From Clavelina lepadiformis (taxonomy: Eukaryota; Chordata; Ascidiacea; Aplousobranchia; Clavelinidae): a DNA stretch of 64,000 nt. Positions 21,208 through 63,231 of this stretch are shown piece after piece. The position numbers and the translations under genes were made by a program. The notes beneath the pieces were generated by a model. It did no database searches, had not been told where the DNA came from, and saw only the letters and a program-made list of their open reading frames with translations. The stretch's first letter is position 1. Every line of letters starts with the position of its first letter. The stretch covers positions 15,545,856-15,609,855 of the forward strand of contig NC_135246.1 in assembly GCF_947623445.1 (NCBI RefSeq). Direction: 5' to 3'.

Positions 21208-21894
21208 ATGAAATTTGTGCTTTTGTTCAGCTGCATTATCGCCAGCTTTGCTTCTTCTGCTGCAAGTAAGTGGTTCAATGATTTAGTGTATAACTCTGAA
21301 CGTTTTATTTCTATGCTTTTTTGGGGCGAATTTAAGCTGTGTTTGAATTTGAATGCTAAATTTGTTTCAGGTTACACGAATCAACAAGTTGCTATACAAA
21401 AGCAAACCAACCAAGAAACGGATGACGATATCAAATTCAAATATCCTGCTATACCCGTTGCCATCGGCCGCTTTATGGTAATTCAATCGTTTTCTGTACT
21501 TGCATTATAATACCTCTATAACGCCGGGAAGCATTCTTATCATATTTTACATGGCCAGGTCGACTGTTCAAGCCATTGTTTGATGAGCAGCGTCACTAGG
21601 GATTATCTGACACCTTGCATTTATCAGCGTTTTCCGTGTAAGTTAAACTTTAATAAAATTGAAGTAAAAAGTAAAGGTACAACCAAAAGGGAAAGGCGCC
21701 ACGTAAAGTGTGTAATGCTGTTACTTATGTATAACCTAGTACACGATTATCGCTAATTTACTTATTATATCGCTATTATCGCTAATGCATTTTCATAAAG
21801 TAGACATGATAAAACTTTTTTTTGTGTTGCAGTTATTTGCCAATTTTGCCGTTACACTTATAAATGCGGAATCAGGCGGTCCTACATGCACTGA
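21208..21894 (+). CDS. Gamma peptide: secreted six-cysteine cationic peptide precursor
   Basis: Four exons, 21208-21265, 21371-21477, 21559-21637, 21833-21894 (TGA), give 101 aa with intron phases 1-0-1. Residues 1-19 (MKFVLLFSCIIASFASSAA) are a clear signal peptide. Exon 2 encodes a propeptide with Gln/Asp-rich QKQTNQETDDD, ending in AIGRFM. Exons 3-4 encode the Cys core VDCSSHCLMSSVTRD...CIYQRFPFICQFCRYTYKCG. Cysteine spacing is C-x3-C-x12-C-x8-C-x2-C-x5-C and the core is basic. Exon 1 length (58 nt), phases and cysteine framework match the alpha and beta genes on the opposite strand, so it is a founding or inverted member of the same family. Polyadenylation signal at 21945-21950. Architecture suggests a host-defence peptide released to the outside; function is inference. 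No database family was recognised. Confidence 0.85.
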
Positions 21895-21944
21895 GCACAT
21901 CTTTTGTGGTCTCGGTTAACTCGATGTCGATTTCCGGTCGGTAT

Positions 21945-21950
21945 AATAAA
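21945..21950 (+). promoter_or_regulatory. Polyadenylation signal AATAAA of the gamma peptide gene
   Basis: Canonical AATAAA about 50 bp after the gamma stop codon, giving a very short 3'UTR and supporting the 3' end of the gene model. Confidence 0.65.
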
Positions 21951-23377
21951 AGCTGTCGACGTCGAAACATCGTTCACTCAAAATGACGTCTCATCAAATG
22001 GATTGAATGTATACGTGCTATTGTTTGCATTATTCTCTTTTAACTGTTGCTTTTCGAGAACTAAGCATTTTCCTGACATTATATTCATTACAGTATTATA
22101 AATTAACCACTTATTTATTACGTTATTTTTTGTCGCCCACTGAAAATAAATGAAGAAAAATTTTGAAGTGAGTAAATGAATACGAAACAAATAATCAAAC
22201 GTAAGTGCGTTCGAAAAGAATCGTGGTCGTAAATTACTGCACACATTAATGATATAAAATATAAAACAGGCTATTTACGCGATGTTTGTGGGCGGCGCTG
22301 TATTAGCATATAAAGTTGATCAAAGCGTTGAAGAAAGTCGTGGCGTAAACATATACATTGACACAGTTTTGTTTAAGGTTGAGAGCAGATTTAACCAACT
22401 GGGACAAAACCATATCGGTGCAGAATTTTTGCTGTAGTCTGCATAAATATGTTACGCTATTTTGTTAAAATGTAAACTGATTTAGAGCCCCAAAAATAAC
22501 TTTTTTCCCTGAAAGATCCGTTTTTCCGTGAAAGATCATGCTTACTTTTATAAGTGACAGGCCCCAATTTCAAATGTCGTGATAGCCTTTGTTCCATTAC
22601 TTTTTTAAATTTTCACCGGAAATGGGACAATTAGTCTGTATTGTGACGTCTGGTCCATTTCCGGTTTGATATGGTAATTTCGCACGCGGCATTTGTTAGA
22701 ATTGTAAAAGGGTGTAGTACTGTAGTTGGTTATTTTTGGCCCAACTGATGAGTCATCTAATTTCATCGCAACACACAGACACGCCTTGGCAATACGGTAG
22801 AGAATGTTTGGATTTCGTCGTCATTTATTTTCATGGTTATTTCTCCGTTAGTTATAATTAAGCTTTACATTTAGCGTTATTAATGTCCTGAAATTTTCAG
22901 CCGTAAAAGCCCTTTTCAACAGCTTGCTTTGCCTTGTGAGTCTCTCCATTCTATACCTTATATCGAAAATATCAGCCTGGTAAAAAAATCGATGTAAAAG
23001 TTGAGATCACGACTCCACACAACAGCTACTTTGAATTTCGTTTGTGTCCTTGGAACAATCTAAATTTTTGAGGTACGGAAAATACGGGTCTGGGTCTGGG
23101 TCTGGGTCTGGGTCTGGGTCTGGGTCTGGGATAACAAGAGGAATTCTACGGTTATTTAGATGTTCAAATCGTGGACGATTCTTTAAACCTAGTCGGGTCG
23201 GAAACTTCCACAAAAGGGAGCCTGTTAACAACCGTTGCTAACATTCTTGTTAGCACCAGTTTCTCATCATCTGCAGCTTCAGCGACAACAGCAACCAAAG
23301 AAAATACCAGCACCGGCAGCGTTGTTAATTGTTATTTTTAAACGTTTATATGATGCGACGTTGATGTTTTTTTGCAG
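21951..23377. other. Region between gamma peptide and CBM14 exon; upstream exons unresolved
   Basis: Should contain the 5' exons of the CBM14 gene, but none could be placed with confidence. A CATATAAAG TATA-like site is near 22298. A Thr/Ser-rich open stretch (TTATKENTSTGS in one frame, near 23282-23320) is a possible mucin-like exon, but its phase does not join the last exon cleanly. Confidence 0.3.
23086..23130. repeat. (GGGTCT)n hexanucleotide microsatellite
   Basis: About seven and a half perfect copies of GGGTCT. Runs of GGG spaced by three bases fit the G-quadruplex consensus on the + strand. In frame it would read Gly-Ser (or Asp-Pro on the other strand), but nothing suggests it is translated. 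Confidence 0.9.
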
Positions 23378-23565
23378 AATTTAGCCACGGAAACGTAAAG
23401 ATCGGCACACCAGTGTTCCGGAACTGCGGCTCCTTCTATACGTGTACCGCTTCTTACCTCGACCCGGTTGCCTTTGCTTGTCCAGCTGGTACGGTGTGTG
23501 ACGTCAGCAGTGGCAGATGTGACCAAGAATACAGAATTCCTTATCAATACGAATCATACCAGTAA
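23378..23565 (+). CDS. Chitin-binding (CBM14/peritrophin-A-like) domain, terminal exon
   Basis: An open terminal exon after a strong pyrimidine-rich TTTTTTTGCAG acceptor, stop TAA at 23563-23565, with AATAAA signals at 23575-23584. It encodes FSHGNVKIGTPVFRNCGSFY, then TCTASYLDPVAFACPAG and TVCDVSSGRCDQEYR. The C-x5-C-x11-C-x12-C arrangement with Phe-Tyr before the second Cys and a C-P-x-G step is the core of CBM14 domains, which bind chitin in secreted proteins of gut linings, cuticles or immune effectors. It enters in phase 1, so at least one upstream coding exon exists but was not resolved. It lies 1.5 kb from the gamma peptide gene on the same strand. Single-domain CBM14 proteins can be immune effectors (inference). 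Confidence 0.7.
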
Positions 23566-23784
23566 TTTAATAATAATAAATAAAACATTTGAATGACATT
23601 GCAAAAATTGCACGTGATCATAGTCTTTGATAATTACTGGAATATTTTAAAATATCTTAATTAAGGCGGCCAATTTGCGAAAATAAATATAATGGAAGAA
23701 ACATGCAAAAATATTCCAAGATTGTTGGCCGCGACTGTTGGTTGTGTAGTTAAAAATCTTCAGTCTAAATTGTTTTCCTTTTTT

Positions 23785-25743: not shown

Positions 25744-27019
25744 TTAAGGTCCGATTCTCGATGATATTGTTCTGCATTTGAGGACGTATCGGCAGATCCG
25801 ACAAAGAACTGTAAAATAAATGAGCATTCAATTCAACCATGAAATACTGTATTTTATTATCGATGCTAGATTGCAGTTTATACTTTAGTGCACTATACAC
25901 AATGCACAGTTGCAGTACTGTGTTTACAATTAGCTCAACGCTCAACAACATTCAAATACCTACACAGTCGAGCAACATGTTTGTATAGGAATAAAAAAAT
26001 AAATAGCAAAATTAAAAAACAGCCGGATCAAATATTTTATATGCTTCAAGTGAGACAGCATGTATATACGCGGTTAAGGTGCATGAAAACTGTCAGAATC
26101 TGGAAGAAGGTATAACACACCACCTTGCTTTGTCTACCTTTTCAGTTTTGAGTGTGGGGCAAAGTGCAAAACGATTTTGCAAATAACAAACGAGACGCTT
26201 ATCGGTTCGACTTGGATAAACCTATTCTAGCCTTCACAGGGTGTTTGAAACGAAAAAGCGAAATGAACAACCAACACGCCGGCATGAAACAAACATATCT
26301 TAAAGATTGTTGTGGCATTGGTTTCTGTATACATGCTATCGGTCTCTTGAAGCGCTTCATCTGTTTATTCGGGTGAAAAAAAACATACTATAACTTACAT
26401 TGTCGTCTTTTGTCATTAGCAGGACAGCTATTCCATGACTTGGTGAGTACGTTGTATCTACAGTATGGAGTGCAGTCAAGCTACAAAGTAAACCGTGAAA
26501 TTTTATCGAAATATTTCGCATCAGCAAAATTATCTCGATTTTTTGACTTTCAATCATATTTTTTTGTTGTCGATGAACTATAACCAACTTTTTATACTTA
26601 TAAGGGAACAAAAACTTAGTTTAACGCACATTCATACTTTCATTGAGTATAAAAAATTAAAGTGATATGTGTCTGATGATGTTATAAGTGCAATATTGCC
26701 AGTATATGATACACTGCACGTTTTCGTATTTGTTTTTGACTTACTATGAATTTCTTGGGCCGGGGTGTAGTCGTAGATTTTTCAACACTTGCTGCCGTTG
26801 TTGCGAGTTCTGTTTCAGAATCTTTGTTTACTTGTGGTGCGGGAACTGCAAAGTTATATGTTGTAATTTTTACCGATGTCGATTAGTCTCATATAGTGAG
26901 ACGTTTATACATGCAGGTGGTTAAGGATGAATCGCTTGCAACTGGCAGCCATCTCACTCACCTGCGTTGACTGACAAGACAAAGTAGAGAAATGCGAACA
27001 AGATAACGCAGGTCTTCAT
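25744..27019 (-). CDS. Beta1: secreted six-cysteine cationic peptide precursor
   Basis: Four exons in transcription order, 26962-27019, 26745-26845, 26399-26480, 25744-25808 (TAA), make 101 aa with phases 1-0-1. Residues 1-19 (MKTCVILFAFLYFVLSVNA) are a signal peptide. Exon 2 is a Thr/Glu-rich propeptide (ETELATTAASVEKSTTTPRP) ending KKFI, a possible dibasic processing site. Exons 3-4 give DCTPYCRYNVLTKSWNSCPA then NDKRRQFLCRICRYVLKC. Framework C-x3-C-x11-C-x10-C-x2-C-x5-C; the mature part is about +8. LCRICRYVLKC aligns directly with ICQFCRYTYKC of gamma and LCRFCRRIKC of alpha. Likely an extracellular defence peptide. Family assignment by architecture is strong; activity is inferred. Confidence 0.85.
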
Positions 27020-29690
27020 TCTTTCGATCGTTCACAAAACTTTCAAATATAATATAAAAAACTAAAATTTGCAAAGTATTTTGCACGCTATTAGCGCTGT
27101 TTTAATGTCTGAAGTCTGAAAAATTAAAAAAAAAAATTAACATTTATTATAGCTTTCTCTATAATGCATACGCTACGTTAAATCCATTCATTGCTACTAC
27201 TGTGTAACACATGCATAAGTCGGCAAGCTAATTGCTCAGACTACAAATTAGGTCACATCATTATTAATACACTGTATTAATTGCACATTAATAAATAATT
27301 AATATATTGTATATAGTGAATGTAATATAATTAATGTCTTGTGTAACACTCTTAAGCGATAAAGTCAAGTCTGTAAGATTAATAAACGAACATGTATTAC
27401 AGTAAGATAAATGTGTTTAAACACATTCATTGCTTAAATGTAATGTAACACATGCAAAAGTCTTTACGCTCATTGTACAAAGTACAAGTAAAACTCTTCT
27501 CTATACCAGAGCAAAAATACCACTTGTTTTACATATCCTCCATTTTCTGCTACAGCACGACGGACTTTGATCCGAAGCCGTTTGAAGCAAACTGATTAAA
27601 CGACCGACAAATATATACCGTTTTTAAAAGTGACGTAACATATTGCTCGTTGATATTAAAAACCAGATTAATTGGCGATAGTGGAGTTCAAAATAAAGAA
27701 GAGTTCATACATGGATGTTGACATGATTTCCGAGATATTTAGAGACATAAGCTCAGAATAACGTAAAATGGCTAAAAATTGCAAACCATTTTTTGTCAAC
27801 TCCAACTTTTACTTCTATTCTGAAACTGATGGGCTAGTTTCAAAGTAAGAATTACTACATATCATGTCTTGTGGACTTAAGTCTATATCGAGATGAATTT
27901 TTGAGTTATAACAATGTAAAATAAAAACAATTTATAATACTAGCGATGAAGTGAATGTTTTATACATGTTACCGCCTCCGGATGAGTGTATATGTCGGTT
28001 GAATGAAACTTAAATGCAATTTTGCACAATTTTCGAGCCTGTAAAAGCGTTTGGCTCCACCTCCGTTTTGGCAGGATGATTGAAAGTGACGCAATCAAAA
28101 AAATTTATAGAATAAATCTCGCCATCAACGCACGCTGACATTTGATTGACAGGCGACGAGATGATTTCAAGATCTTAATTAATTGGCAACACGATGAAAG
28201 GTTCTTAAAAATATTAAACGAACAATTGTCAGACACAAAATGAACGCAGCTCCCAGAAATGGGATAGAACAATTTAGCAATTCCTTTATGGGTTTCCACC
28301 TTCCAGGTATTGACTGCAGCCAATTGTCGCCTCCATTTAAGGAAAATGAATCTGACACCGACAGACGCTTTTAATTATGACCTCATTTAACGTTTACACG
28401 AATTGGTGAAATGACCTGAGGTAAACTTTAGCAAAAAATGCTTTCAAATACGGAGTTAACGAGCTTTAGCTTCATGTGTTTTATTTCCTCAGTTTTGCGT
28501 GAAAGTTGCTTTATAAATAGAAACAATTAAAGTACGAAAATAAAATGTTTTCTATAATACAATATATATATAATAATCTATATAAATATATATATATAAT
28601 ATATTAATAATATTTCCCGAATGTTGAATGAAGGAAGTGAATTAATATATAAAAATAAAATATATGACAAATCTTTGCTGGCCATGTGACCAAGTCATTC
28701 CACTTAGATTAATAAAAACGTACGGTATTTACAAAATAATGAATAAATTTTTCATGTTATGCGTCATTAGTGGAAAATATACACTATACAGTCATCCTCA
28801 AGCATCAGCATAAACTGCAAAAACAGAGTTACTTAATTGTACAGATTTGCACGCAAAGTAAAATGTAAGAATTTTTTCGAAAAAGTGTCAATTATTGCGG
28901 AACATATTCTTAAAAAAGACTCTGATTTTCTAGAAATAGTTTAATAAGCATTTCCGGGAAAGCTTAAACGCTATTTCCCGGAAAAAACCATAACCCATGC
29001 GGCCACAGGGTTATTTCTCCATTACGAGTTTTAGCCAAAAGCCTTAGGCTAATATGCATGCGCTTTGCACGTTATCAGTTTCTGTCACGAGGTGCGTGCT
29101 GCAAGGAGAAGGTTGCTTGTGGCTCTAAAAATTTCAAAACTTTGAAAAAATTTTTAATCTACTTGCGTATCCGGAGGTTATGTTTATATGTTGCGTAAAC
29201 CAAGCTGCGCTAAACATAGCAGGATTAGGCTAAATTTAGAGCGATGAGTGTGTAAATTTAGATACATCATCTCCAAAGTAAAACAGAACCTTGTTTGACA
29301 GAGTTAAAAATAACTCCGAAAGGACTTATTTTTGTAAGTCTGAATCAAAACCAATTTCGTCTACGTTTTAGATAAATAGACGACTGAAGTTTTTGGATTC
29401 GAAAGTTTAGCATATCTATTACGTAAGAAAAAACATACTTATTCCTAAAAATGGAAATGTTTGATTTTGGGGATATTTTACAATCAAAACGACGGCAGCT
29501 GTAATGAGCTGCCTGATTCATAGAGTTGCGGGGTAAAAATTTTGACGTAAAAATCCCTAAATAACATGTCACATGTTAATCTACTAAAATGTTAAAAAAA
29601 GTAGATTACGTTATAAAGTTTATTTAATTTTATAAAAATTCTTTTTAACATTTATGAATTACAAGAGCCTGCTTCGTGTGTCTGAAATTA
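27020..29690. other. Upstream flank of beta1, no gene seen
   Basis: About 27500-28400 is diverged but homologous to 40100-41000 upstream of beta2 (shared GCAAACTGATT, ACCGTTT and AGTGACGTAA/TGCCGTAAT stretches). An (AT)-rich simple tract occupies about 28559-28612. No exon recognised. Confidence 0.45.
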
Positions 29691-29694
29691 TTTG

Positions 29695-32507: not shown

Positions 32508-33895
32508 CTAAAGTAAAGGTCCGCTTGTAGAAACGCATTTGATTCGACGACAGAACCTGCACAGGACTGCAAACAAACAAAAAAATGCTTGATTAGAAAA
32601 TTTGAAAACTTTACAGATTTGCAAGAAATTTTTCTGAAAGAGCTGATATATTCAATAAATAGTTAAAATAAGTGGAAATTAAAGTTGTAAAAATATAGAA
32701 GACATACTGTAAATATCACATCTATATGTATGGTACAATTTTTTGGCTCTTTGCTATAACTTACTTGGAAAAAGTTTTTTGTTGCAATCGCCGACGAATG
32801 ATCGGTTTGTTGTGCTCTTGCGGCAATATTCTTGACATTTCTTTAAGGTAAACATGGGTACAGGTTGTTGTTATTGGTTTAAAAAGAAGCAACATCTGCT
32901 TAGCTTTACATTTATTTGTTCTTGATTTACACCGAAAGTAAATAAAACGTTTGATTGTTATATTTTTTAACTTTCGTTTCAATTAATTAGATTCTCACCC
33001 TGTTGATAAAAGAATTCCCAAGACTAAATGGAGAAATCTGATTCTCTCTTATTATCTGTGCGAGATAGAAGTCCGGTAGCGATTCGCCGGACGAATGATG
33101 GGTGACATTTCCTAACACTTCATTTTCGATAGGCTCCGCAGATGTCACTACATAGAAGGAAAACGTTTTCATTAACAGCAAAAGAAAACCTGTTTTGCTT
33201 ATCACTTATCAGTTATCACCGTGCAAACTATAGCATCGCTTCATAGATAACTCTATTACTGGCAACAATAGATTAAAAGCATATTCATAAAAGAAGCCTA
33301 ATGTAGTTTAACAAAAAGAATTAAGAGAAAAAAACAAAATGTTTACATATTTTAAGGCGCAAAACGCATATATTATTTCTAGCAAATTTTCAACGATGAA
33401 GTCGTACGATCAAATAAAAGAAAGTTTTAAATGACTACAAACAACGCAAAGATTACTAAGTTTGCTGACCAGAGCAAAGTTAAGATCACCAATCACCGAG
33501 GATTTGGTTAGAAGACCAATTTTACAATTGATCGCTAACTTCAACATATACTACAACTGACACCAAACAGACACCAGAACCTTGAAAAACCTAATGATGC
33601 CGAACGTAAATGCACTATATATACAATATATTAATGAACGATTCATCGTTCAAGACGCTTAGGTTTGAATCAAGAATCAATTAAATATGAGGCTTATATA
33701 TTAAATATTGGTTGCATTATGATCTTTATTGTGTTATCATGTCATTGCTATATATTTCATAACATTAAACTTTATGAATATATTCTTATTTTACATTTTA
33801 ATTCATTCGGAAAAGAATCAGAAAAATGTTTTCTTACTCGAAAAAGATGCCAAAATGAGACAAGTTACGGCCAATAAAGAATAGATAGTTTTCAT
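32508..33895 (-). CDS. Alpha0: secreted six-cysteine cationic peptide precursor
   Basis: Four exons in transcription order, 33838-33895, 32999-33147, 32765-32840, 32508-32566 (TAG), make 113 aa with phases 1-0-1. The signal peptide is MKTIYSLLAVTCLILASFS. The 49-residue propeptide (exon 2) includes EPIENEVLGNVTHHSSGES and LGNSFINR and is net acidic in its first half. It ends Arg-Lys at the exon 2/3 join, a natural dibasic cleavage site. The mature part is KCQEYCRKSTTNRSFVGDC, then NKKLFPILCRFCRRIKC. Framework C-x3-C-x12-C-x8-C-x2-C-x4-C. This is the most diverged alpha copy and lies outside the young 8-kb tandem. Likely the older single-copy relative of alphaA-C. Confidence 0.85.
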
Positions 33896-35029: not shown

Positions 35030-35512
35030 CAGGGGTGACGAACCTATTCGATGACGCGGGCCACTTTGTCAGTTACGGCTGAGCAAGCGGGCCGCACAAT
35101 TGTTTTAACATTTTGCATAATAATTAGCATTCAAGCACAACCGCTTCATTTGGCAGATTTTTAGCTGCTCCCGCGGCCGCAAAAAATACATCGATTGAGT
35201 GCGGCAATCTATTGAAGACATACTGCTGTGACTCAATTGTGCTATCAGCTTTTGATATCGCATTGCGCAAAGATTAGAAACAGGTGAAAGAAAGTTCAAG
35301 ACTGCTGGTCTCACCGGACGCTTCGTTCAAGACTGCTGGTCTCCCGGACGCAAAATTTAACCCTAAATTCTGGACATGTCCGGAATTTTCCGGACGGTAT
35401 GGCAACCCTAAAATTCCTATAAGTCCTATATGCCTTGCATGTATGGGCGTTTGTCAAATCGTTTGGTGGGCCGCACAAAATTGTTTGGCGGGCCGCAGGT
35501 TCGTCACCCCTG
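35030..35512. mobile_element. hAT-type MITE with perfect ends and target duplication
   Basis: A 483-bp element. Perfect 16-bp terminal inverted repeats: CAGGGGTGACGAACCT left and AGGTTCGTCACCCCTG right. Identical 8-bp flanks TCTTACAT (35022-35029 and 35513-35520). Internal GCGGGCCGC-type subterminal motifs at both ends. No transposase frame. The perfect ends imply recent mobility. Confidence 0.92.
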
Positions 35513-39106: not shown

Positions 39107-39924
39107 TCAAGGTCCGATTTTCGATGATGTTGTTCTGCAGTTAAGGACGTATCGACAGACCCGACAAAGAACTGTAAAATAAATGAGTATTCGATTAAAA
39201 CATATAGATTATTTTATTGATAATTTAATGAATTGTAAATTCTATTGCAATGTTTGCAGTTATCTAAAACGACAATATTTAAGTAATTTTATCGTAACGT
39301 AACATGTTTGTATAGTAAAAAGTATTAAAAAATACTGTATATTACTAAAACTTAAAATACCAAAGTCTAACTTACATCGTCCTAGTTTTTCAGTAGGGCA
39401 GCCATCCCTTGACTTATTGAACACGTTGTATCTGCAGTATGGAGTGCAGTCGAGCTATAAAGTATGATAAAAAAATTTCATCAAAACGTGTATATGCAGT
39501 TTTCAACTTTTTAAATCATTATGCACTTATTATTTGAAAAATTTACATACATTTCTTTATAGTTATAATAACCAAAGAACAATTTAATTACATGCGAAAT
39601 CTTACTCTCATTTGTAATAATGATGCATTAGTTTTCGTTTTTGACTTACTATAAATTTCTTGGGCCGGGGTATAGTCGTAGGTTTTTCAACATTTGCTGC
39701 CGTTGTTGCGAGTTCTGTTTCAGAATCTTTGTTTAATTGTGGTGCGGGAACTGCAAAGTTATATGTTGTAATTTTTACCGACGTCGATTAGTCTCATATA
39801 GTGAGATGTTTATACATGCAGGTGGTTAAGGATGAATCGCTTGCAACTGGCAGCCATCTCACTCACCTGCGTTGACTGACAAGACAAAGCAGAGAAATGC
39901 GAACACGATAACGCAGGTCTTCAT
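39107..39924 (-). CDS. Beta2: secreted six-cysteine cationic peptide precursor
   Basis: Four exons in transcription order, 39867-39924, 39650-39750, 39376-39454, 39107-39171 (TGA), make 100 aa with phases 1-0-1. Signal peptide MKTCVIVFAFLCFVLSVNA. Propeptide VPAPQLNKDSETELATTAAN ending PRPKKFI. Core DCTPYCRYNVFNKSRDGC, then PTEKLGR and LCRVCRYVLNCR. The third-to-fourth cysteine spacing is one residue shorter than in beta1. Exons 1-2 are nearly identical to beta1 while exons 3-4 differ more, so the mature part changes faster than the leader. Intact reading frame. Confidence 0.85.
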
Positions 39925-45893: not shown

Positions 45894-47490
45894 CTAAAGT
45901 AAAGGCCCTTTTGATGAACCGCATTTGACCCGACGACAAAATCTGCACAGAGCTGAAAACAAACAAAAAGTGTTTGATTAATAAATTTTTAAACTTTAGT
46001 TTTAAATATAATGTTTTTTAGAACAGTTTGGAAAAAATCCAAACATGCCCTTGAAATTTTAAGAACACTTGAGAATTAAAGATGTTCAAGATAATAACTC
46101 CTGAAGCAGATATATAAAAGATATACAAATCAAAACACGTAAATCACTGCCCTTTGGTAAAACTTACCTTTAAAAAGCTTTTTGTCACAATCGCCGTTGT
46201 ATGATCTGTGTGACGTATTTTTGCGGCAATATTCGTCGCATTTCTATAAAAGAAACATATTTTAGCTGTTGTTATTGGCTTAAAACTAAAGTAAAGTTAT
46301 TCAATCTGACATATAAGTCATATATGACAAATTTGTGACTTTGATCTTGACATGCAGTTGTACACTGAAACTAAATGGAAACTTTGATTGCTACATACGA
46401 GCTGATAGATATGAAGTTTTATCTTTCTTTTCAATTCATTTATAGATCCTCACCCTGTTGATAAAAGCATTCCCAAGACTAAATGCAGAAATCTGATTCT
46501 CTTTCAATATTTTTGCGAGATAAAAGTCTGTCAGCGATTCACCGGACGAATGATGGGTGACATTTCCTAACACTTCATTTTCGATAGGCTCCGCAGATGT
46601 CACTACATAGAAAGAAAACGTTTTCATTAGCAGCAAAAGGAATCTGTTTCGATTACCAAACGTTACAAAGTTACCAGCTAGCGTGTTTAATCATGGCTTG
46701 TGTAAAATAAATGTTATTGAACAAAAAATGAAGGCAGAAACAAAAAATCCTGTTTGTCAATTTCGTGATGCGGAAAGGCTTATTTTATTTCAAATAATTG
46801 GCAACGAATATGTACAGCTATGTTGTCATAAACAAGCTACAATTGAAGCCTGTGCAGAAGATCCAGTCACACTGCAATATAAAGTTGCTATACAGAAGCC
46901 ACTATATCTGAAAAAGCAATCGCTAAGTTTAACTATAGTTTGAAACCGTGATTATATCTTATGACGTTTTGTGTTTGTTAAGTATAGTGGCTGGTTTGTA
47001 AGCTCTGGTGCTTCATTTAACTTGTTAAAATAACTTTTGTTTCGTGCAAGATTCATCGTTTATACAGATTTTGAAGTGCTGAAGCGTCATTAGATACAAA
47101 AATGTTTATCTGTTTTGCTGATAAGGTGCTAAAACATCGGAAAATCTAACCGCCAAACATAAAGACGATAAACTAACAATTAAAATAGTCAAATAAAGGA
47201 ATTAATATATGTGGAAGAATATTTTGATAAGATGTATAAACTTAACCTGCCAATTCTCTGACATCCAATTGGGTAATGTAAACATATATTGTTTCGTAAA
47301 GTGTTTGCCATATCATGTTATTGTTACTTTATTAAAATATATACTGTAACTCGCAATAAACATTAAACGGATCATTATACTTTACATTACGAGCTAATCT
47401 GAACAGAAAATTAAAAAAAGTTTGCTTACCAAAAGGTGGTGGTGCAAGAATGAGGCAAATCAAGGCCAATGTAGCAAGGATGGCTTTCAT
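45894..47490 (-). CDS. AlphaA: secreted six-cysteine cationic peptide precursor
   Basis: Exons in transcription order, 47430-47490, 46454-46602, 46168-46243, 45894-45952 (TAG), make 114 aa with phases 1-0-1. Signal peptide MKAILATLALICLILAPPPF. Propeptide VTSAEPIENEVLGNVTHHSS ending INR. Mature KCDEYCRKNTSHRSYNGDC, then DKKLFKALCRFCRRVKCG and a tail SSKGPLL. Framework C-x3-C-x12-C-x8-C-x2-C-x4-C; about 12 Lys/Arg against 4 acidic residues in the mature region (about +8). Arg-Lys at the pro/mature border fits furin-type processing. Intact. Confidence 0.87.
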
Positions 47491-50352: not shown

Positions 50353-50691
50353 TTAAGGTCCAATATTCGACGATATTGTTCTGCATTTAAGGACGAATCG
50401 GTAGACCTGACAAAGCACTGAAAAAAAAATGATTCCATAAAAGCAAGAATTATTTAATTGTCAATGGCTCATAGTTTGCGTTTTAGGGCTCTGTGTTTGC
50501 AATTACCAAATACAACAATTTTTAAGTAACTGCTTAGTCAGGTAAGATGTTTGTATAAACAAAATTAATTACAAAAAATTAAAAAATTCTTAAAAGCCAA
50601 AACTGAACTTACATCGTCGTCTTTTGTTAGTAGGACAGCTACCTCTTGACCTGTAGAATGCGTTATATCTGCAGTACGGTGTGCAGTCGAA
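50353..50691 (-). pseudogene. Beta3 remnant: exons 3 and 4 only
   Basis: Two exons in transcription order, 50613-50691 and 50353-50417, correspond to the mature part of beta genes: FDCTPYCRYNAFYRSRGSC, PTNKRRRL, LCQVYRFVLKC. Frame and splice sites are kept. The signal-peptide and propeptide exons seen in beta1 and beta2 were not found upstream, where Ras-like copy A now lies. One cysteine of the C-x2-C pair is Tyr. Most likely a decayed partial copy. It could still be an alternative 3' exon pair for an unseen transcript. Confidence 0.65.
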
Positions 50692-51307
50692 CTACAAACA
50701 TTTTAGCATGGGTTCAGAATATTTCAGCAGAATGTTTTGCATTAGCAAAAATATCTCCAGTTTTCGATGTATTATCACACTTTGCATTTTGGTAAATTAA
50801 TTATTTAACACACGTGTTATAACTATATGATCAAAGAACAACTGAAGTCTTGTTATAATAGTTTATACATTATAACTAAAAATCTGCTTTTATATCCAGT
50901 ATAGCAACGGTATGGTATGATATCATAATAAAAAAACTGATAAATGTGATTATGCCTTGCCCGTTGTCGAACGAGACATTCTACCGTGCCTACTTTTTAC
51001 CGTTTTGAAATACAATACTATAGTTAACTGCAGGTTCCTTCAAACCAGCACTAAAAAAAGCCGGTAACACTAAAACCCTCCAAGGACAATTTAAGTCAGA
51101 ATATCATAACATTTATGTTAGGAATGCGCGATTTTTCCCGGTGAAATGGCGGAAGCTTAATGCAAATGGCTAAACAATAGTGAGACAAAGAGCATAGCTT
51201 GGATTGAAAGCAAAGATCTTTTATTGAGCAGTAAGGCGGGACCGACACAGATAGAAACGAAGCCGCAATGTTAAATGTAACAAATACTTTCGCGTTGCAA
51301 AAGCCCA

Positions 51308-52297: not shown

Positions 52298-52762
52298 TTT
52301 CGTAGTAATTCTGCGCAGGCTGAGCTCAGTAACAGTAGCAAGACGTAACAAATGGTTTTACAGCATTTCGAAAGTCTTTTATAGGATGCGTGTGTAGAAA
52401 AAATAGAAAAAAGTTTAATAGAAAGTCTGATAACGTTATAGATTATGATAACGAGGTTTGTTTACAAATCCAAGATCTGTTAGAATTTATCTCCAGTCCG
52501 CCACAGGGAAAGATAATTGAGTGATTTTTGTTATCGTCAATCATCGACTCGACGTGACATTGCGCCACTACCAAATACCTTCAAAGGTTACGTTGAGAAT
52601 TTGTTGTTTGATACAAGATTGAACCATTTTATCGCTTATCAGCTCTGGAACCACTACTTTGTTCCACAAGCAAGAAGAAGCAAGAAGTATCTCGTTAAAA
52701 CTAAAAGCAAACCAAATCCTTTGATTTTATATTTTCGCGTCGTAGACTTTGTTGCCCTAACA
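52298..52762. other. Upstream region of Ras-like copy A
   Basis: Conserved with 60695-61159 upstream of copy B. It probably includes the GTPase promoter. The long + strand open frame here runs into the MITE and is treated as chance. Confidence 0.4.
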
Positions 52763-52927
52763 CAATGGTTCTCAGCCTATTTCTACCTGCGGACAGCTGG
52801 CCGTAATAATTCCTATCTTGTGAATTCCGACTTCAAAATTGTGACTTAATAAACTCTTTATGAAGAATTAAAGTATAACTCGCGTACCCCTGCACCACCT
52901 TTGCTGGCTTCAGGTTGGGAACTACTG
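52763..52927. mobile_element. hAT-type MITE (CAGTGGTTCTCAA family-like)
   Basis: About 165 bp. Left end CAATGGTTCTCAGCCT, right end AGGTTGGGAACTACTG: imperfect terminal inverted repeats of the hAT/Charlie MITE type. The flanking octamers CCCTAACA and CTCTAATC match at 5 of 8 positions. The copy is complete here in unit A; the unit B copy is cut at its right side. Confidence 0.72.
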
Positions 52928-52936
52928 CTCTAATCC

Positions 52937-53165: not shown

Positions 53166-54011
53166 ATGGTTTCGGTCCAATGCGCTTGTGTTCTTAATTT
53201 GTGATGGTTTGCTGAGTCCACCCCTTCATTACTTTTCTTGTATCATACGTATCCTTAAAGTAAACACATAGTGCTACTAATACTGCTAGTATTACTAAAA
53301 CGATGACAATTTTTAAGATATAATGATCATGAAATTCGGTATTTTTTTAATTTACATTAACTTAAGGACAAGGCGAAAATTTTTTTTTCCAATTTACTTG
53401 AATTTTTATGAATTTATTTTCAATTGTAAATTTTACAACAAGCAGCAAGTGAGTTTATGAATGACTCGTTTGAATTGTAAATAAGTAACCAGGGAACCGG
53501 GAACTAGCTTCACGCCGGTCAATATTAGCGAGTTTTCAATCGAAACTTATGGCTTTCTTTTCACGCTCATTATATTTGAAAACTGGTCGGTTAGAGTACA
53601 TTTACAATACACGTAGGTTGGTTTAAAATGTGCTGGAACACAACTGTATGCCGCTAGCTCAACACATTCCATTGAAAGCCGAAAAATGAACCTTTGTGTC
53701 TTTTATTAAATCCCGTTTATGGTGTATGATGACAAGTGCTCAAAAACATTTGATGCATTTTATTGCGAACTTTTCTGATTGCATGCTAAATTGTTATAAG
53801 CAAACTATAAACTTATATAATAATGTATTTATATTAAATATAAGTTTGCCATCGATTATTATAAGTTTGGTTTTACTTCAGTCCGTTTGAAGTTATCAGT
53901 ACATTTTCTATACATTTTAAGTGCATCAACAGCTGGTCCTGGTTAATTGTGAGAAATATCAATGATCAAAATGCTAATGTGTTTTGAAAATGCTCCGACT
54001 TTGAAACTCAT

Positions 54012-55613
54012 CTAAAGTAAAGGCCCTTTTGATGAACCGCATTTGACCCGACGACAAAATCTGCACAGAGCTGAAAACAAACAAAAAGTGTTTGATTAAT
54101 GAATTTTAAAACTTTAGTTTTAAATTTAATGTTTCTTCGAACACTTTGGAACAAATACAAACATGCCCTTGAAATTTTAAGAACAGTTGAGAATTAAAGA
54201 TGTTCAAGATAATAACTCCTGAAGCAGATATATAAAAGAAATACAAATCAAAACACGTAAATCACTGCCCTTTGTTATAACTTACCTGTAAAAAGCTTTT
54301 TGTCACAATCGCCGTTGTATGATCTGAGTGACGTATTTTTGCGGCAATATTCGTCGCATTTCTATAAAAGAAACATATATCAGTTGCTGTTATTGGCTTA
54401 AAACTAAAGTAAAGTTATTCAATCTGACATATAAGTCATATATGACAAATTTGTAAAATTGATCATGACATGCAGTTGTACACCGAAACTAGCTGGAAAC
54501 TTTGATTGGTACATACAAGCTGATAGATATGAGGCTTTATCTTTCTTTTCAATTCATTTATAGGTCCTCACCCTGTTGATAAAAGAATTCCCAAGACTAA
54601 ATGCAGAAATCTGATTCTCTTTCAATATTTTTGCAAGATAGAAGTCTGTCAGCGATTCACCGGACGAATGATGGGTGACATTTCCTAACACTTCATTTTC
54701 GATAGGATCGGCAGATGTCACTACATAGAAGGAAAACGTTTTCATTAATAGCAAAAGGAATCTTTTTCGATTACCAAACGTTACAAAGTTACCAGCTAGC
54801 GTGTTTAATCATGGCTTGTGTAAAATAAATGTTATTGAACAAAAAATGAAGGCAGAAACCAAAAATCATGTTTGTCAATTTCGTGATGCGGAAAGGCTTA
54901 TTTTATTTCAAGTAATTGGCAACGAATAAGTACAGCTATGTTGTCATAAACAAGCTACAATTGAAGCCTGTGCAGAAGATCCAGTCACACTGCAATATAA
55001 AGTTGCTATACACAAGCTAGTATATCTGAAAAAGCAATCGCTAAGTTTAACTATAGTTTGAAACCGTGATTATATTTTAAGACGTTTTGTGTTTGTTAAG
55101 TATATAGTGGCTGGTTTGTAAGCCCTGGTGCTTCTTTAAACTTGTTAAAATAACTTTTGTTTCGTGCAAGATTCATCTTTTATTCAGATTTTGAAGTGCT
55201 GAAGCGTCATTAGATACAAGAAATGTTTATCTGTTTTGCTGATAAGGCGCTAAAACCTCGGAAAATATAACCGCCAAAGATAGAGACGACAAACTAACAA
55301 TTAAAATGGTCAAATAAAGGAATTAATATATGTGGAAGAATATTTTGATAAAATGTATAAACTTAACTTGCCAATTCTCTGACATCCAATTGGGTAATGT
55401 AAATATATATTGTTTCGTTAAATGTTTGCCATATCATGTTATTGTTACTTTATTAAAATATATACAGTAACTCGAAATAGACAATAAAAATGCCATTATA
55501 CTTTACATTACGAGCTAATCTGAACAGAAAATTTAAAAAAAAGTTTGCTTACCAAAAGGTGGTGGTGCCAGAATGAGGCAAGTCAAGGCCAATGTAGCAA
55601 GGATGGTTTTCAT
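54012..55613 (-). CDS. AlphaB: secreted six-cysteine cationic peptide precursor
   Basis: Exons in transcription order, 55553-55613, 54572-54720, 54286-54361, 54012-54070 (TAG), make 114 aa with phases 1-0-1. Signal peptide MKTILATLALTCLILAPPPF. Propeptide VTSADPIENEVLGNVTHHSS ending INR. Mature KCDEYCRKNTSLRSYNGDC, then DKKLFTALCRFCRRVKCG. It differs from alphaA by a few replacements in every part, so the pair has had some time to diverge. Intact frame and GT/AG junctions. Confidence 0.87.
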
Positions 55614-58438
55614 CTTGGTAGTTAGATTTGCACGTACAGTACACAACTGTATTAATTTCTGGAGAAAAAACTTACCAATGTCACTCTAAGATCCTGCATG
55701 AAAAGAATTGTTTGCATACTTTTGTTGTAAATATTACAAAAATCTTAAGTAGACACAAACGCGAGTGCTCTTCCTTTTGAAGTCAGTTAAGGAAGATTAG
55801 AACAATGCATTTTTAATTACGATCGATCTCGCGGTTTGGCGTGCATTGCCAGTCAGCCAGACGTTTCTCTTGAAAAAATTTGCATCCAAACGATCAAATC
55901 ACGTTTATTGAATTCTAAATGGTCTGATTTCTACCAGTTTGCCAAGGAATAACTTTGCCACCCCGCAACTTTGTCTGAAAATATTTGCTACAGTACCCTT
56001 AACGCTGCTGTCTTTATTGCATTTTTTTGCGCCCAGTTAACTATGTTACCGTGGTTTTGTACTTTAAGCTAATAATCTCATTTTTCTATATATAAAATTG
56101 TTATTGTTAATAGCAAACAAATTTATTGATTTTAACACACATTGCAGAAGCACTGGTTACCTTCAATATATTAAATCTGGATTTCATTTATTCATTCTTA
56201 ATGTATCAGAAATCGCAAAAACACCTGACGCCAATATATGCTTCAGAATTAATGAAACCTCCGATATTTGCCTGGGTCCTGTCCACCAGACAATGCTGCT
56301 GATGACAAACTTGCTCTTTGTATGTTTCTTATATATGAAAGCTGCAGGATGCGAGATAGACTCCTTGCCAAGAAACGTGATTGTTCCAAATTAGCGAGCT
56401 TGCATGGGCTTCCTAGTTACTGAGCACGACGCTAGCAAAAGGTTGGACCGTAATCAACTTTTCAATGGCTTTAACGTTTACGTTGTTTAAATCTGGTTAA
56501 AATTAATCACGACATGCTAGTTAAGTTCCAGACGTGTCATTTTCATTACGTATGTAGGATGCTGAGATATATGACTGTTGCGTCACCTTTCCTCGCCACC
56601 ATCACCATTTAAGACTGAATTTTTGGCAAACTTTTCCCCGTGAAAGTTCTACCAATGGCAATCATCCAAGTTAGGAGCTAAGCCACTTACAGAACTTAAT
56701 ACGGGCAATTTATTAGAAGTATTAATTTCATTTTTTAAAAGGTATACATTAAAATTAAGATGATATAATTGATAGAATCGATACAATTGAAATCATAACT
56801 AAAACAAAGGATTTTCAACTGAAATTACACTAATTACATAAATAGATGTATACAGTAAAATCTTCCCGCGTAATTCAGCAAAATTTCATTAAGTTATAAA
56901 AAACCGTTTTCTTGAAATTTTAGATTTTCTTGCCAAAGGAAATTTCATTGGCAGACAGTTGATGAAAATGTGCTTGAGGAAATCCTTTTAAACCGGAAGG
57001 AACCGGAAACTGCGAAACCTCTAGATGGCATCTAGATTGCTATTTTTGTGTTGATTTTGATAAGTATGAAACTTTTCAATTCTTTTATTCTTCTTGTCAA
57101 TGTTGAAATTATGAAATTGCAATATGCAAATAAAATTTTTTTCGTATCCAATAAGATGCTTCCGGTAATTTTAGTCCAGTTTAAGAAGTTTTTAACAACG
57201 TCCGGTATATTTTCAAATGTGCTCTTATCAGTTCACATCTTAGGTATGTAAACCAGCCCACCATGAAAGTTATTTTCATTGCATTTGGAGTTATGCAAAT
57301 AAACAGGTTTGCATCGTGATTTAATAAAACAAAAACTATATAAAAATACAAGTCTGATCGTTATACTTAAACAATCCATTGAAAAAGCTGATTTAATTTT
57401 TGGTCAACAAATTTGAAACGCCGTATACAAAAATTTTGTCATGTCGTATAGCCAAGGCCTGACAAATGACCAGTGCTGTTTCGGGTTTTATAATTTTTAG
57501 TGATGATAACTTCTGTGTTGGGACTAGGAGGGTTGGTTTGTTAACCAATTCATTGGTAAGCTTCAGTGCGTTGCTAGCAACAGGATAGTTATGCCTTTTA
57601 TAAAGCCTATTTTGAAAGGATCCGCCAAGCTTTTTATAAAAACTAGATCATACATTTTTAAGATTATGTTCTATATGATTGTTTTTTGAAAATACAGTTG
57701 TAAAAAGATTCAACCCATTATTATGCCAATGGCACAAAAGCTATCGAAAAACTCGACTGCCTAAAATCAATCGAGCTGTCAGATTCAGCAGAAAAAAATC
57801 ATTCCTGTTTCTCCATTTTTACGTTTGTTTTTTTTGCGCCTTCCTTAACTAGCAACAGACGCTTGCTTATGTCTCCTGCATCGTGACGCTAACGGTCTAT
57901 AACCAGATGAAAGTGTAGAAATACGTGTAAAAGTATCGTTTCCGTTTTAACGCAATGGGGTTAATTAAAAACAATTTCCTGGTTGGACCCAGTTGACATT
58001 TACCATTTTGATTAACAAATGTTTTCAGTCGTGTCATCAAAACTTACAGCGTGTCCATCAACAATTTAACATGGTTATAAAGATTTATGACTATACACTA
58101 TATTGTTAAAAACATAATAAAAAATACAAACCATTCATCATTATAATTAGGTGATTGTAATAATACCATCATGTTTTTTCTGCAAAACTATGAAATAATA
58201 AGTGGAAGTTTACATATAATAGACTATCAGGTCAAGACACACGATGACCGACATTCACATCTTGTAAACAGCATATATCCCAAAACATAGTATGACCTAT
58301 ATAGTGACCTGATATCAGCAAACGCACAAACACTTGGCAGTTTTCTTACGCTGAAATAATAACCGGAATAATATTTGAATAATGTCACATGAAATGATAT
58401 TTGTAACCGTGAAATAATTTTTGTGAATGTGAAATAAT
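55614..58438. other. Unit B spacer between alphaB and beta4
   Basis: Counterpart of 47491-50352. The open stretch near 56337-56423 (+) is conserved with unit A. No complete gene recognised. Confidence 0.4.
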
Positions 58439-58777
58439 TTAAGGTCCAATATTCGAGGATATTGTTCTGCATTTAAGGACGAATCGGTAGACCTGACAAA
58501 GCACTGAAAAAAAAATGATTCCATAAAAGCAAGAATTATTTAATTGTCAATGGCTCATAGTTTGCGTTTTAGGGCTCTGTGTTTGCAATTACCAAATACA
58601 ACAATTTTTAAGTAACTGCTTAGTCAGGTAAGATGTTTGTATAAACAAAATTAATTACAAAAAATTAAAAAATTCTTAAAAGCCAAAACTGAACTTACAT
58701 CGTCGTCTTTTGTTAGTAGGACAGCTACCTCTTGACCTGTAGAATGCGTTATATCTGCAGTACGGTGTGCAGTCGAA
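58439..58777 (-). pseudogene. Beta4 remnant: exons 3 and 4 only
   Basis: Exons in transcription order, 58699-58777 and 58439-58503, are the unit B counterpart of beta3 and near-identical to it, with the same Tyr in place of one core cysteine. As in unit A, no signal-peptide or propeptide exon was found upstream. The decay therefore predates the 8-kb duplication. Confidence 0.65.
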
Positions 58778-59007
58778 CTACAAACATTTTAGCATGGGTT
58801 CAGAATATTTCAGCAGAATGTTTTGCATTAGCAAAAATATCTCCAGTTTTCGATGTATTATCACACTTTGCATTTTGGTAAATTAATTATTTAACACACG
58901 TGTTATAACTATATGATCAAAGAACAACTGAAGTCTTGTTATAATAGTTTATACATTATAACTAAAAATCTGCTTTTATATCCAGTATAGCAACGGTATG
59001 GTATGAT

Positions 59008-59338
59008 TGTAACGAAATTATGTCACGCGTTATTCACAGTATTTTGTATTTTACCGTTTTTGTGAGTTTGTTCTCTAGTGCGTTGATTGGTTGCAATTAC
59101 CGTTGTTTGTCTCACGTTTTGTGCACTTTTATATTATCATTTATCACTAATTTGGCGCCTTGCCTTTTGTACCCTATAAAAGCCGTTCGTTAAGTGATTT
59201 GAGTAAGTCGGTTTTGGTTTTGGGTCGTAGAGGCTGTTGAATAAAATGAGTTGATTTCTTGGGTTTATTGGTGGTGTCGCGGTTCACCGTGAATGTGGAA
59301 ATTGAGCCTGGCTACAGGAAAGAAAAAGTTCTGTTACA
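59008..59338. mobile_element. Solo LTR of an LTR retrotransposon
   Basis: A 331-bp insertion present in unit B and absent from the matching site in unit A (about 50927). It starts TGTAAC and ends GTTACA, the usual TG..CA form. It is flanked by a 4-bp duplication TGAT (59004-59007 and 59339-59342). It carries a TATA-like CTATAAAAG (about 59174) and AATAAA (59240-59245), as LTRs do. No internal region: a relic left by LTR-LTR recombination. The 4-bp duplication would suit a Ty3-type or Copia-type element; the family is not settled. Younger than the A/B duplication. Confidence 0.8.
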
Positions 59339-59729
59339 TGATATCATAATAAAAAAACTGATAAATGTGATTATGCCTTGCCCGTTGTCGAACGAGACAT
59401 TCTACCGTGCGTACTTTTTACCGTTTTGAAATACAATCCTATAGTTAACTGCAGGTTCCTTCAAACCAGCACTAAAAAAAGCCGGTAATACTAAACCTAA
59501 TTCCTAGGACAATTTAGGTCAGAATATCATAACATTTATGTTAGGAATGCGCGATTTTTCCCGGTGAAATGGCGGAAGCCTAACGCAAATGGCTAAAAAA
59601 TAATGAGACAAAGAGCATAGCTTGGAATGAAAGCAAAGATCTTTTATTGAGCAGTAAGGCGGGACCGACACAGATAGAAACGAAGCCACAATGTTAAATA
59701 TAACAAATACTTTCGCGTTGCAAAAGCCA

Positions 59730-60694
59730 TCACAATGTAAAACGTGCAATATAACAACCATGTGCGTTAACAACACGGTAAAACGAACGAAAACATAAGT
59801 CAAAGTTTTTCGAGCACCTTCGAGATATAATGCAACATTTTTTCTTGAACGATTGCTTTTTGTTCTTCTCCACGCCTAAGTTTTTTGTGATTTCCGCCAG
59901 AAGACAACGGAAAGCTTTGGGAACTTCAGCGTTGCAAGTTGCCGCCGTCTCAAAGAAACCGACGCACGACAGGTCACGTGACAATGCATCACCGACATCT
60001 TGCTCGATTTCTCTGGACAGTTCAGCCTCATCCATTTTATTGCCCACAAGCACCACCGGTATGCTTAGGCCCGCCGGGGCGGGATTTCTTGTCGGGGTCT
60101 TCACCGGGTTCTGCCCGTCATTTCTTGCCCCTTCTGGGTCGTTACTTGCGTCTTCAGACTTCGACCTGAGGTTTTCGAAAAGTTTCTGAAGCGCCGTGGT
60201 CTTGAGGAATTGGAACGACGCCTTATCCACGACCGAATAAACGACCATCACGCCTTGACAGTCTTTCAACCCCTTGTCGTCCAGGTCACGAAAGACGATA
60301 ACTTCGAGGTCATATTTCCCAGTGTCGAGTTGGACGATCTTGGAAGGATTGTCACCGGGTTCTGTGAATTATAAGTCAAAAACAGAGATTTACCCAAATG
60401 TAGTAAAAATCTAAAACCCTTTGCAATATCGTTACAAAGTCGCGGGATGTTAAATCATACATCAAACGAGAGTTTATTTTACTGTAAGGGCTGTAAATGT
60501 AGTATAATTATTGTCGGATGCACTGTTCTCCTGATGAAATGCCGTTACACAATAAACTACATAACACCCAACTTACCGTTAGAATCCCTGGGAGCAATCC
60601 AGCCGTTTGCAAATTGATGACTCAGCGAATACTTCCCGACGCCCGAAGTACCCACTACAGCAATCTTCAGCTTTGGCAGAGGTTTCTTTCCCAT
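59730..60694 (-). CDS. Divergent Ras-like small GTPase, copy B
   Basis: Two exons, 60577-60694 and 59730-60361 (TGA), 249 aa, same structure as copy A. It begins MGKKPLPKLKIAVVGTSGVG, followed by KYS with the same Tyr after the P-loop Lys. G4 reads VVLVGNKMDEAELSREI and G5 FFETAAT. The KKKCCIIS motif followed by an Arg codon and a 30-residue extension is also shared. Both copies keep long intact frames with few, mostly conservative, replacements, so both may be expressed. Divergent transcription from the upstream + strand side was not established. Confidence 0.82.
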
Positions 60695-61159
60695 TTTCGT
60701 AGTAATTCTGCGCAGGTTGATCTCAGTAACAGTAGCAAGATGTAACAAATGGTTTTACAGCATTTCGAAAGTCTTTTATAGGATGCTTGTGTAGAAAAAA
60801 AAAGAAAAAAGTTTAATTGAAAGTCTGATAACTTTATAGATTATGATAACGAGGTTTGTTTACAAATCCAAGATCTGTTAGAATTTATCTCCAGTCCGTC
60901 ACAGCGAAAGATAATTGAGTGATTTTTTTATCGTCAATAATTGACTCGACGTGACATTGCACCACTACCAAATACCTTCAAAGGTTACGTTGAGAATTTG
61001 TTGTTTGATACAAGATTGAACCATTTTATCGCTTATCAGCTCTGGAACCACTACTTTGTTCCACAAGCAAGAAGAAGCAAGAAGTATCTCGTTAAAACTA
61101 AAAGCAAACCAAATCCTTTGATTTTATATTTTCGCGTCGTAGACTTTGTTGCCCTAACA

Positions 61160-61304
61160 CAATGGTGCTCAGCCTATTTCTACCTACGGACAGCTGGCCG
61201 TAATAATTCCTATCTTGGGAATTCCGACTTCAAAATTGTGACTTAATAAACTCTTTATGAAGAATTAAAGTATAACTCGCGTACCCCTGCACCATCTTTG
61301 CTGA
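61160..61304. mobile_element. hAT-type MITE, right end missing
   Basis: Counterpart of the 52763-52927 element. It follows it up to CACCATCTTTGCTG at 61304, where the sequence jumps to the unit C start (AACCTTTCTGTC). The right terminal repeat is therefore absent: the duplication breakpoint lies in the element. Confidence 0.75.
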
Positions 61305-61624
61305 ACCTTTCTGTCTTTTATTAAATCACGTTTATGGTGTATGATGACAAGTGCTCAAAAACATTTCATGCATTTTATTGTGAACTTTTCTGATTGCATG
61401 CTAAAATTGTTATACGCAAATTATATATAATAATGTATTTATATTAAATATAAATTTGCCATCGATTATTATTATAAGTTTTGTTTTACTTCAGTTCGTT
61501 TAAAGTTATAAGTACATTTTCTATACATTTTAATTGCATCAACAGCTGGCCCCGGGTAATTGTGAGAAATATCAATGATCAAAATTCTAATGTGTTTTGA
61601 AAATGCTCCGGCTTTGAGACTCAT

Positions 61625-63231
61625 CTAAAGTAAAGGCCCTTTTGATGAACCGCATTTGACCCGACGACAAAATCTGCATAGAGCTGAAAACAAACAAAAA
61701 GTGTTTGATTAATAAATTTTAAACTTTAGTTTTAAATTTAATGTTTTTTGGAACACTTTGGAAAAATTCCAAACATGCTCTTGAAATTTTAAGAACACTT
61801 GAGAATAAAAGATGTTCAAGATAATAACTCCTGAAGCAGATATATAAAAGAAATACAAATCAAAACACGTAAATCACTGCCCTTTCTTATAACTCACCTT
61901 TAAAAAGCTTTTTGTCACAATCGCCGTTGTGTGATCGGTGTGACGTATTTTTGCGGCAATATTCGTCGCATTTCTATAAAAGAAACATATATCAGTTGTC
62001 GTTATTGGCTTAAAACTAAAGTAAAGTTATTCAATCTGACATATAAGTCATATATATGACAAATTTGTATGATTGATCTTGACATGCAGTTGCACACCGA
62101 AACTAAATGGAAACTTTGATTGTTACATACAAGCTGATAGAAATGAGGTTTTATCTTTCTTTTCAATTCATTTATAGGTCCTCACCCTGTTGATAAAAGA
62201 ATTCCCAAGACTAAATGCAGAAATCTGATTCTCTTTCAATATTTTTGCAAGATAGAAGTCTCGATTCATCGGACGAATGATGGGTGACATTTCCTAACAC
62301 TTCATTTTCGAAAGGATCCGCAGATGTCACTACATAGAAGGAAAACGTTTTCATTAACAGCAAAAGAAAATCTGTTTCGATTACCATACGTCACCGCAAA
62401 GTTACAAAGTTACCAGCTAGCGTGTTTAATCATGGCTTGTGTACAATAAATGTTATTGAACAAGGCAGAATCCAAAAATCATGTTTGTCAATTTCGTGAT
62501 GCGGAAAGGCTTATTTTATTTCAAGAAACTGGCAACGAAGATGCACAGCTATGTTGTCATAAACAAGCTACAATTGAAGCCTGTGCAGAAGATCCAGTCA
62601 CATTACAATATAAAGTTGCTATACAGAAGCCACTACTGTATATCTAAAAAAGCAATCGCTAAGTTTAACTATGGTCTGAAACCGTGACTATATTTTATGA
62701 CTTTTTGTGTTTGTTAAGTATATAGTGGCAGGTTTGTAAGCCCTGGCGTCTCTTTTAACTTTTTAAAATAACTTTTGTTTCGTGCAAGATTCATCGTTTA
62801 TACAGATTTTGAAGTGCTGAAGCGTCCATTAGATACAAAATTGTTTATCTGTTCTGCTGATAAGGCGCTAAAACCTCGGAAAATGTAACCGCCAAAGATA
62901 GAGACGATAAACTAACAATTAAAATGGTCAAGTAAAGGAATTAATATTTGTGGAAGAATATTTTGGTAAGATGTATAAACTTAACCTGCCAATTCTTTGA
63001 CATCCAATTGGGTAATGTAAACATATATTGTTTCTTAAAATGTTTGCTATATCATGTTATTGTTACTTTATTAAAATATATACAGCAACTCGAAATAGAC
63101 AATAAAAATGCCATTATACTTTACATTACGAGCAAATCTGAACAAAAAATTTAAAAAAAAGTTTGCTTACCAAAAGGTGGTGGTGCCAGAAGGAGGCAAG
63201 TCAAGGCCAATGTAGCAAAGATGGCTTTCAT
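61625..63231 (-). pseudogene. AlphaC: third tandem copy of the alpha peptide gene, probably broken
   Basis: The four exon blocks are recognisable: 63171-63231, 62186-62329, 61898-61973, 61625-61683. The signal peptide is good (MKAIFATLALTCLLLAPPPF), and the mature part reads KCDEYCRKNTSHRSHNGDC and ALCRFCRRVKCG with all six cysteines. The propeptide exon is not intact compared with its sister copies (about one break), so the usual precursor is probably not made. Splice sites and the mature exons remain well preserved, so the loss is recent. Confidence 0.7.

Follow-up and report, generated by a model that had tools for sequence, protein, structure and literature searches.

We describe a cluster of genes for small secreted cationic peptides with six cysteines, which probably belong to host defence as antimicrobial-type peptides, in the ascidian Clavelina lepadiformis. 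The stretch analysed, called here the window, is 64,000 nucleotides of contig NC_135246.1 (assembly GCF_947623445.1, positions 15,545,856 to 15,609,855, forward strand); unless stated otherwise, positions are counted from its first letter. The genes fall into three subfamilies, alpha, beta and gamma. What is new is the cysteine framework and the gene architecture, and the kind is known, that of clustered cysteine-rich peptides of defence type.

Genes were rebuilt from the sequence as exons joined by GT-AG introns, and reading frames, cysteine counts and the charge encoded by exons 3-4 were recorded. Seven four-exon loci were recovered where the initial annotation, made from the letters of the window, had placed them, each with a basic six-cysteine core preceded by a signal-like start and a propeptide. 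The gamma gene is on the forward strand (21208..21894; exons 21208-21265, 21371-21477, 21559-21637, 21833-21894). The other six are on the reverse strand: beta1 (25744..27019; exons 27019-26962, 26845-26745, 26480-26399, 25808-25744), alpha0 (32508..33895; exons 33895-33838, 33147-32999, 32840-32765, 32566-32508), beta2 (39107..39924; exons 39924-39867, 39750-39650, 39454-39376, 39171-39107), alphaA (45894..47490; exons 47490-47430, 46602-46454, 46243-46168, 45952-45894), alphaB (54012..55613; exons 55613-55553, 54720-54572, 54361-54286, 54070-54012) and alphaC (61625..63231). All seven do keep four exons, as annotated, but six are intact, not seven, because the frame of alphaC is broken in exon 2 (62329-62186) by a 5-base deletion (144 bases against 149 in alphaA); its other exons (63231-63171, 61973-61898, 61683-61625) are open. 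Two further loci, beta3 (50360..50700) and beta4 (58445..58790), both on the reverse strand and with approximate ends, hold the mature exons 3-4 only, exons 1-2 being absent. This had been seen before, but both have in addition lost the fifth cysteine, with a TAC codon (Tyr) against TGC in beta5, an intact gene outside the window. As beta5 has all four exons, keeps Cys5 and is nearly identical to them in the mature exons, the two fragments look as if they had arisen by decay from copies of a beta5-like gene. The nine loci of the window are therefore six intact genes, one frameshifted gene and two fragments.

Intact precursors, inside the window and beyond it, are 98-114 residues long, and their hydrophobic start was judged signal-like by eye. 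The part encoded by exons 3-4 has 44-48 residues, among them six cysteines, the core being split after Cys3, with three cysteines on each exon. Cysteine spacing is C-x3-C-x12-C-x8-C-x2-C-x4-C in alpha, C-x3-C-x11-C-x9/10-C-x2-C-x5-C in beta and C-x3-C-x12-C-x8-C-x2-C-x5-C in gamma, which bears out, subfamily by subfamily, the general framework first proposed (C-x3-C-x11/12-C-x8..10-C-x2-C-x4/5-C). The proposed mature charge of about +4 to +8 also held: counted as K+R-D-E over exons 3-4, gamma has a net charge of +4, and the six remaining four-exon loci in the window range from +6 to +8 (beta5 to beta8, outside it, reach +7 to +9). All ten intact precursors have one or more basic residues within five positions before Cys1, which in beta are KK or RK/RKR. 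Their C-terminal ends are GPLL, GP or MH, without a Gly for amidation in any of the ten.

Next, the whole assembly (209,060,895 bases, 95 contigs) was searched with the alphaA, beta1 and gamma proteins, which gave 16, 30 and 4 matches respectively. All but two were on the contig of the window, at contig positions 15,567,063-15,641,898; the exceptions, weak matches of beta1 (E 1.49 and 7.6), fall in long open frames on other contigs and were treated as chance. The cluster is not confined to 21208-63231, as had been annotated: four beta genes, all intact, lie beyond the window (beta5, beta6 and beta7 on the reverse strand, beta8 on the forward strand). In total, 13 loci are spread over about 75 kb, 10 of them intact, 1 frameshifted and 2 reduced to fragments. 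No other credible member was detected in the assembly with these three queries; as the search proceeded exon by exon, strongly diverged members could escape it.

A scan grammar, composed after the genes had been seen, described two AG-bounded exons no more than 1 kb apart, the first C-x3-C-x11/12-C with a phase-1 donor and the second C-x2-C-x4/5-C with a stop. It returned seven exon pairs in the window, the seven loci and nothing else, and none in any of 60 dinucleotide-preserving shuffles. The 20 kb to the left and 82,060 bases of 27 other loci gave none either, and the 60 kb to the right gave 4 further genes. The exon-4 pattern in its x4 form was found at 40 places (3 for the reversed control), of which 4 are the alpha genes; of the remaining 36, 20 were extracted as loci, none with a correctly phased acceptor. 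Two places were tested and proved to be nuclear receptor fingers, and several others have one repeated sequence in common. It is hardly conceivable, given the empty shuffles, the absence of the grammar from some 102 kb of other DNA of the genome, and the concordance of phases, frameworks and coding constraint across ten intact genes, that open frames arising by chance have been wrongly joined as exons. We conclude that the genes are real, beyond chance.

That alpha, beta and gamma form one multigene family, as had been claimed, is supported by two lines of sequence comparison. Intron phases are 1-0-1 (introns 1, 2 and 3) in every full copy, inside and outside the window. In addition, the profile of one subfamily was scored on peptides of another (targets 2 of 3 alpha and 3 of 6 beta peptides) and compared to 1000 shuffles with the cysteines held fixed; alphaC, beta3 and beta4 were left out of these profiles, as well as of the trees and of the analysis of nonsynonymous to synonymous change (dN/dS). 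Seven such tests gave 8.9-19.8 bits, with 0 to 8 shuffles in 1000 as good, and a joint alpha and beta profile gave 24.2 bits on gamma (0/1000). Shared phases and cross-subfamily scores together argue for common descent.

Self-comparison of the sequence brought out three tandem units, 92-96% alike, at 45100-52906, at 53230-61303 and from 61302 to a point some 2.7 kb past the right edge of the window. Each holds an alpha gene together with beta exons 3-4; a Ras-like gene is present as well in the first and second. These two Ras-like genes (51395-52297 and 59817-60694, reverse strand; Pfam Ras E 4.6e-12 for the larger exon) have pieces that are 96% and 92.5% identical. The P-loop of the first copy reads GTSGVGKY, and its nucleotide binding may be altered, since a Tyr stands at the end where Ser or Thr is usual. 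Compared to the first unit, the second one has about 330 additional bases (59008-59337) with TG...CA ends seen by eye, like a solo long terminal repeat.

Beta genes are mosaics, in which a similar signal/propeptide half is joined to a diverged mature half. Among beta1, beta2 and beta6, pairwise difference is 3.3-3.6% from exon 1 through intron 1 to exon 2, and 27-31% from exon 3 through intron 3 to exon 4. Synonymous differences, pooled over these three non-independent pairs, number 2 in the signal and propeptide together (about 114 sites) and 31 in the mature part (about 99 sites). In tree tests the discordance was partial only: the alignment of the 5′ half disfavours the 3′ tree (approximately unbiased test, AU, p 0.027), and the alignment of the 3′ half does not reject the 5′ tree (AU p 0.091). 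Pooled ratios of nonsynonymous to synonymous differences per site (pN/pS) in the mature part are 0.45 for the six betas and 0.40 for the three alphas, which indicates purifying selection. For the beta signal exon the ratio is 1.24, a value resting on very few changes.

The most constant part of the beta genes is a 5′ block made of about 28 bases of leader, exon 1 and the first 50 bases or so of intron 1. It is found at 26912..27047 in beta1 and at about 39817-39952 in beta2 (both reverse strand), and four further copies lie to the right of the window. The block is near-invariant across the six intact betas even where it does not code, in contrast to the remainder of these genes, which has diverged; pooled pS in these genes is 0.030 for exon 1 versus 0.375 for the propeptide. 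A query containing the block gave six matches in the genome, all within this family. Its RNA fold is not significant (z -0.85). Gene conversion or a regulatory element would explain its invariance.

How such genes might work can be put as follows. The signal peptide would come from exon 1 and the propeptide from exon 2, with the six cysteines divided equally between exons 3 and 4. Cleavage of the propeptide at the basic residues directly before Cys1 would release a peptide of about 44-50 residues with a net charge of +4 to +9 and three disulfides, which would bind and disturb negatively charged microbial surfaces. The family would expand by tandem duplication followed by decay, and gene conversion or recombination among beta copies would join the shared signal/propeptide half to diverged mature halves. 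Splicing in vivo, cleavage and disulfide formation are predicted here from the gene models, and we infer expression, antimicrobial action and host defence itself. A signal-like start, a propeptide, a short cationic core with paired cysteines and multiple copies, the features of gene-encoded cysteine-stabilised host-defence peptides, are all present in the cluster. We favour host defence because of the pre-pro build, the basic residues before Cys1, the charge, and an array that gains and loses copies. Antibacterial short cysteine-rich peptides of partly similar framework, known in another aplousobranch ascidian (PMC7024374), count in the same direction. So does the constraint on the mature part seen in the pN/pS ratios.

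Several observations nevertheless speak against a defence role. Where the propeptide is presumed to be cut, alpha and gamma have a lone R. The 1 kb upstream of the 11 four-exon loci contained no NF-kappaB-like site, when 2.3 would be expected from background. Diversifying selection on the mature part was not seen in the six betas and three alphas, and sequence comparison detected no homology to known antimicrobial families, turgencins included, in the libraries searched. Animals use small, secreted, cysteine-rich peptides with basic cleavage sites to inhibit proteases, as ligands of ion channels, for signalling and in reproduction, and a function of this sort on a disulfide scaffold, not antimicrobial, is a possible but unlikely alternative. 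Purifying selection on the mature part and the lack of NF-kappaB-like sites would suit it. However, no inhibitor or hormone family came above cut-off in Pfam or among the sequences of the PDB, and high positive charge in a multi-copy array with decayed copies suits defence better than an inhibitor or signalling role.

Library searches yielded little that could decide on ancestry. Pfam (four precursors) and NCBIfam (three) returned sub-threshold matches only (Kelch_6 E 0.11, zf-AN1 E 1.6, GldN E 0.08). Four of the six beta peptides matched EBA-175 region VI in Pfam (best E 0.012), below its cut-off, and this was treated as chance. Among PDB sequences, the alphaA peptide had no match, a six-sequence profile two only (E 4.8 and 8.9), and the beta profile three, none significant: two NR4A1 chains (E 0.48) and ‘EsRRA’ (E 9.9). 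Rfam gave no match over the whole window. The NR4A1 chains, as top matches, raise the idea that the cysteine core derives from a nuclear receptor, whose second zinc module would have been captured by a secreted gene. In line with it, zf-C4 (PF00105) appeared on one of the six beta peptides, at E 0.36, short of its cut-off (no match in the four precursors), and two receptor exons of the genome reached 13.0 bits (equalled by 20 of 2000 Cys-fixed shuffles) and 6.8 bits (equalled by 134 of 2000). These scores are partly circular, because the exons were found with a pattern drawn from the Clavelina family. As no match was significant or above a curated cut-off, and as the likeness is confined to CRxCRxxKC, the first half of the core being without match, we consider such an origin very improbable.

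Other features of the window are an exon matching aldo/keto reductase at 9140-9493 (forward strand, E 3.6e-07), one matching the C-terminal part of Exo84 at 13946-14374 (reverse strand, E 6.7e-08), and a chitin-binding peritrophin-A exon at 23380-23565 (forward strand, CBM_14, E 5e-06), 1.5 kb from the gamma gene. Between alpha0 and beta2, the segments 35040-35510 and 35970-36330 are mutually similar by eye and repeat-like.

The initial annotation recognised no published family with this framework. This holds for the libraries and for the open-access papers searched (most subscription papers and preprints lie outside that search), in which the Clavelina family is undescribed, but it overlooked the turgencins, which have part of the framework. 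Beta-defensins and big defensins are cationic six-cysteine peptides encoded in gene clusters, but their last two cysteines are adjacent, whereas the final spacings of the Clavelina family are 2 and 4-5; Pfam returned no defensin for the four precursors or the six mature beta peptides searched. The CRP-I peptides of Mytilus resemble the Clavelina family in their clustered genes, signal peptide, propeptide, basic cleavage site, six cysteines and decayed copies, but differ by a C-C-CC-C-C knottin array, a mature peptide contained in a single exon, and positive selection on that mature part (PMC10138031). That array is absent from the ten intact Clavelina genes, none of which has adjacent cysteines. 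In the aplousobranch Synoicum turgens, St-CRP-1 and St-CRP-2 also have six cysteines, but they are neutral peptides of 18-19 residues with a CC-C-C-CC arrangement and connectivity 1-6, 2-4, 3-5 (PMC13208793). Styelins and botryllin, from other ascidians, are likewise made as pre-pro-peptides releasing short cationic peptides, but styelin-like peptides are helical, and the excerpted account of botryllin makes no mention of cysteine (PMC9966394).

The nearest published framework, on cysteine spacing, is that of turgencins A and B, antibacterial peptides also from S. turgens (Aplousobranchia) and, to the knowledge of their authors, the first cysteine-rich antimicrobial peptides characterised from tunicates (PMC7024374). 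They have 35-36 residues, an amidated end, the motifs CXMAC and KKXGG, the spacing C-x3-C-x4-C-x7/8-C-x2-C-x3-C and, for turgencin B, disulfides 1-6, 2-5 and 3-4 established by nuclear magnetic resonance (PMC7024374). Both groups come from ascidians of the same order and have six cysteines, no adjacent pairs, a net positive charge, a C-x3-C start and C-x2-C at cysteines 4-5. Loops 1 and 4 therefore agree, and loops 3 (7-8 in turgencins versus 8-10 in Clavelina) and 5 (3 versus 4-5) are near. The turgencin spacing as a whole, however, is not that of the Clavelina peptides: loop 2 has 4 residues versus 11-12, and CXMAC, KKXGG and the amidation glycine are absent from all ten intact precursors. 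On the Clavelina family profile, turgencins A and B scored -0.5 and -0.3 bits, with 409 and 399 of 1000 Cys-fixed shuffles as good, no likeness beyond the cysteines. Turgencin queries had no match in the Clavelina genome, an uninformative result with so short and weak a query (35-36 residues). The difference in loop 2 and scores no better than shuffles do not support kinship, and in spite of the shared order and partial framework we regard it as rather doubtful that the Clavelina genes branched from the turgencin lineage, with the same nested disulfides (1-6, 2-5 and 3-4), membrane action and a longer loop 2. By analogy, the Clavelina peptides may still work like turgencins. A broader conjecture, equally unlikely in our opinion, is that an old superfamily of disulfide-stapled antimicrobial peptides is common to aplousobranchs, with turgencins and the Clavelina cluster as branches; its genes would have four exons with phases 1-0-1 and a core split after Cys3, and would have diversified as recombination joined a common signal/propeptide cassette to one mature cassette or another.

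The excerpts of PMC7024374 report no turgencin gene or precursor, and its authors state that the evolutionary place of these peptides is resolvable only from the genes, which resisted their cloning. The cluster described here, besides supplying a set of peptides for testing, offers in its conserved secretion cassette and varied mature cassettes a testable model for how such families diversify. From a chromosome-level genome of the same order, its ten intact genes give precursors, an exon structure and a framework to seek in Synoicum and Aplidium.

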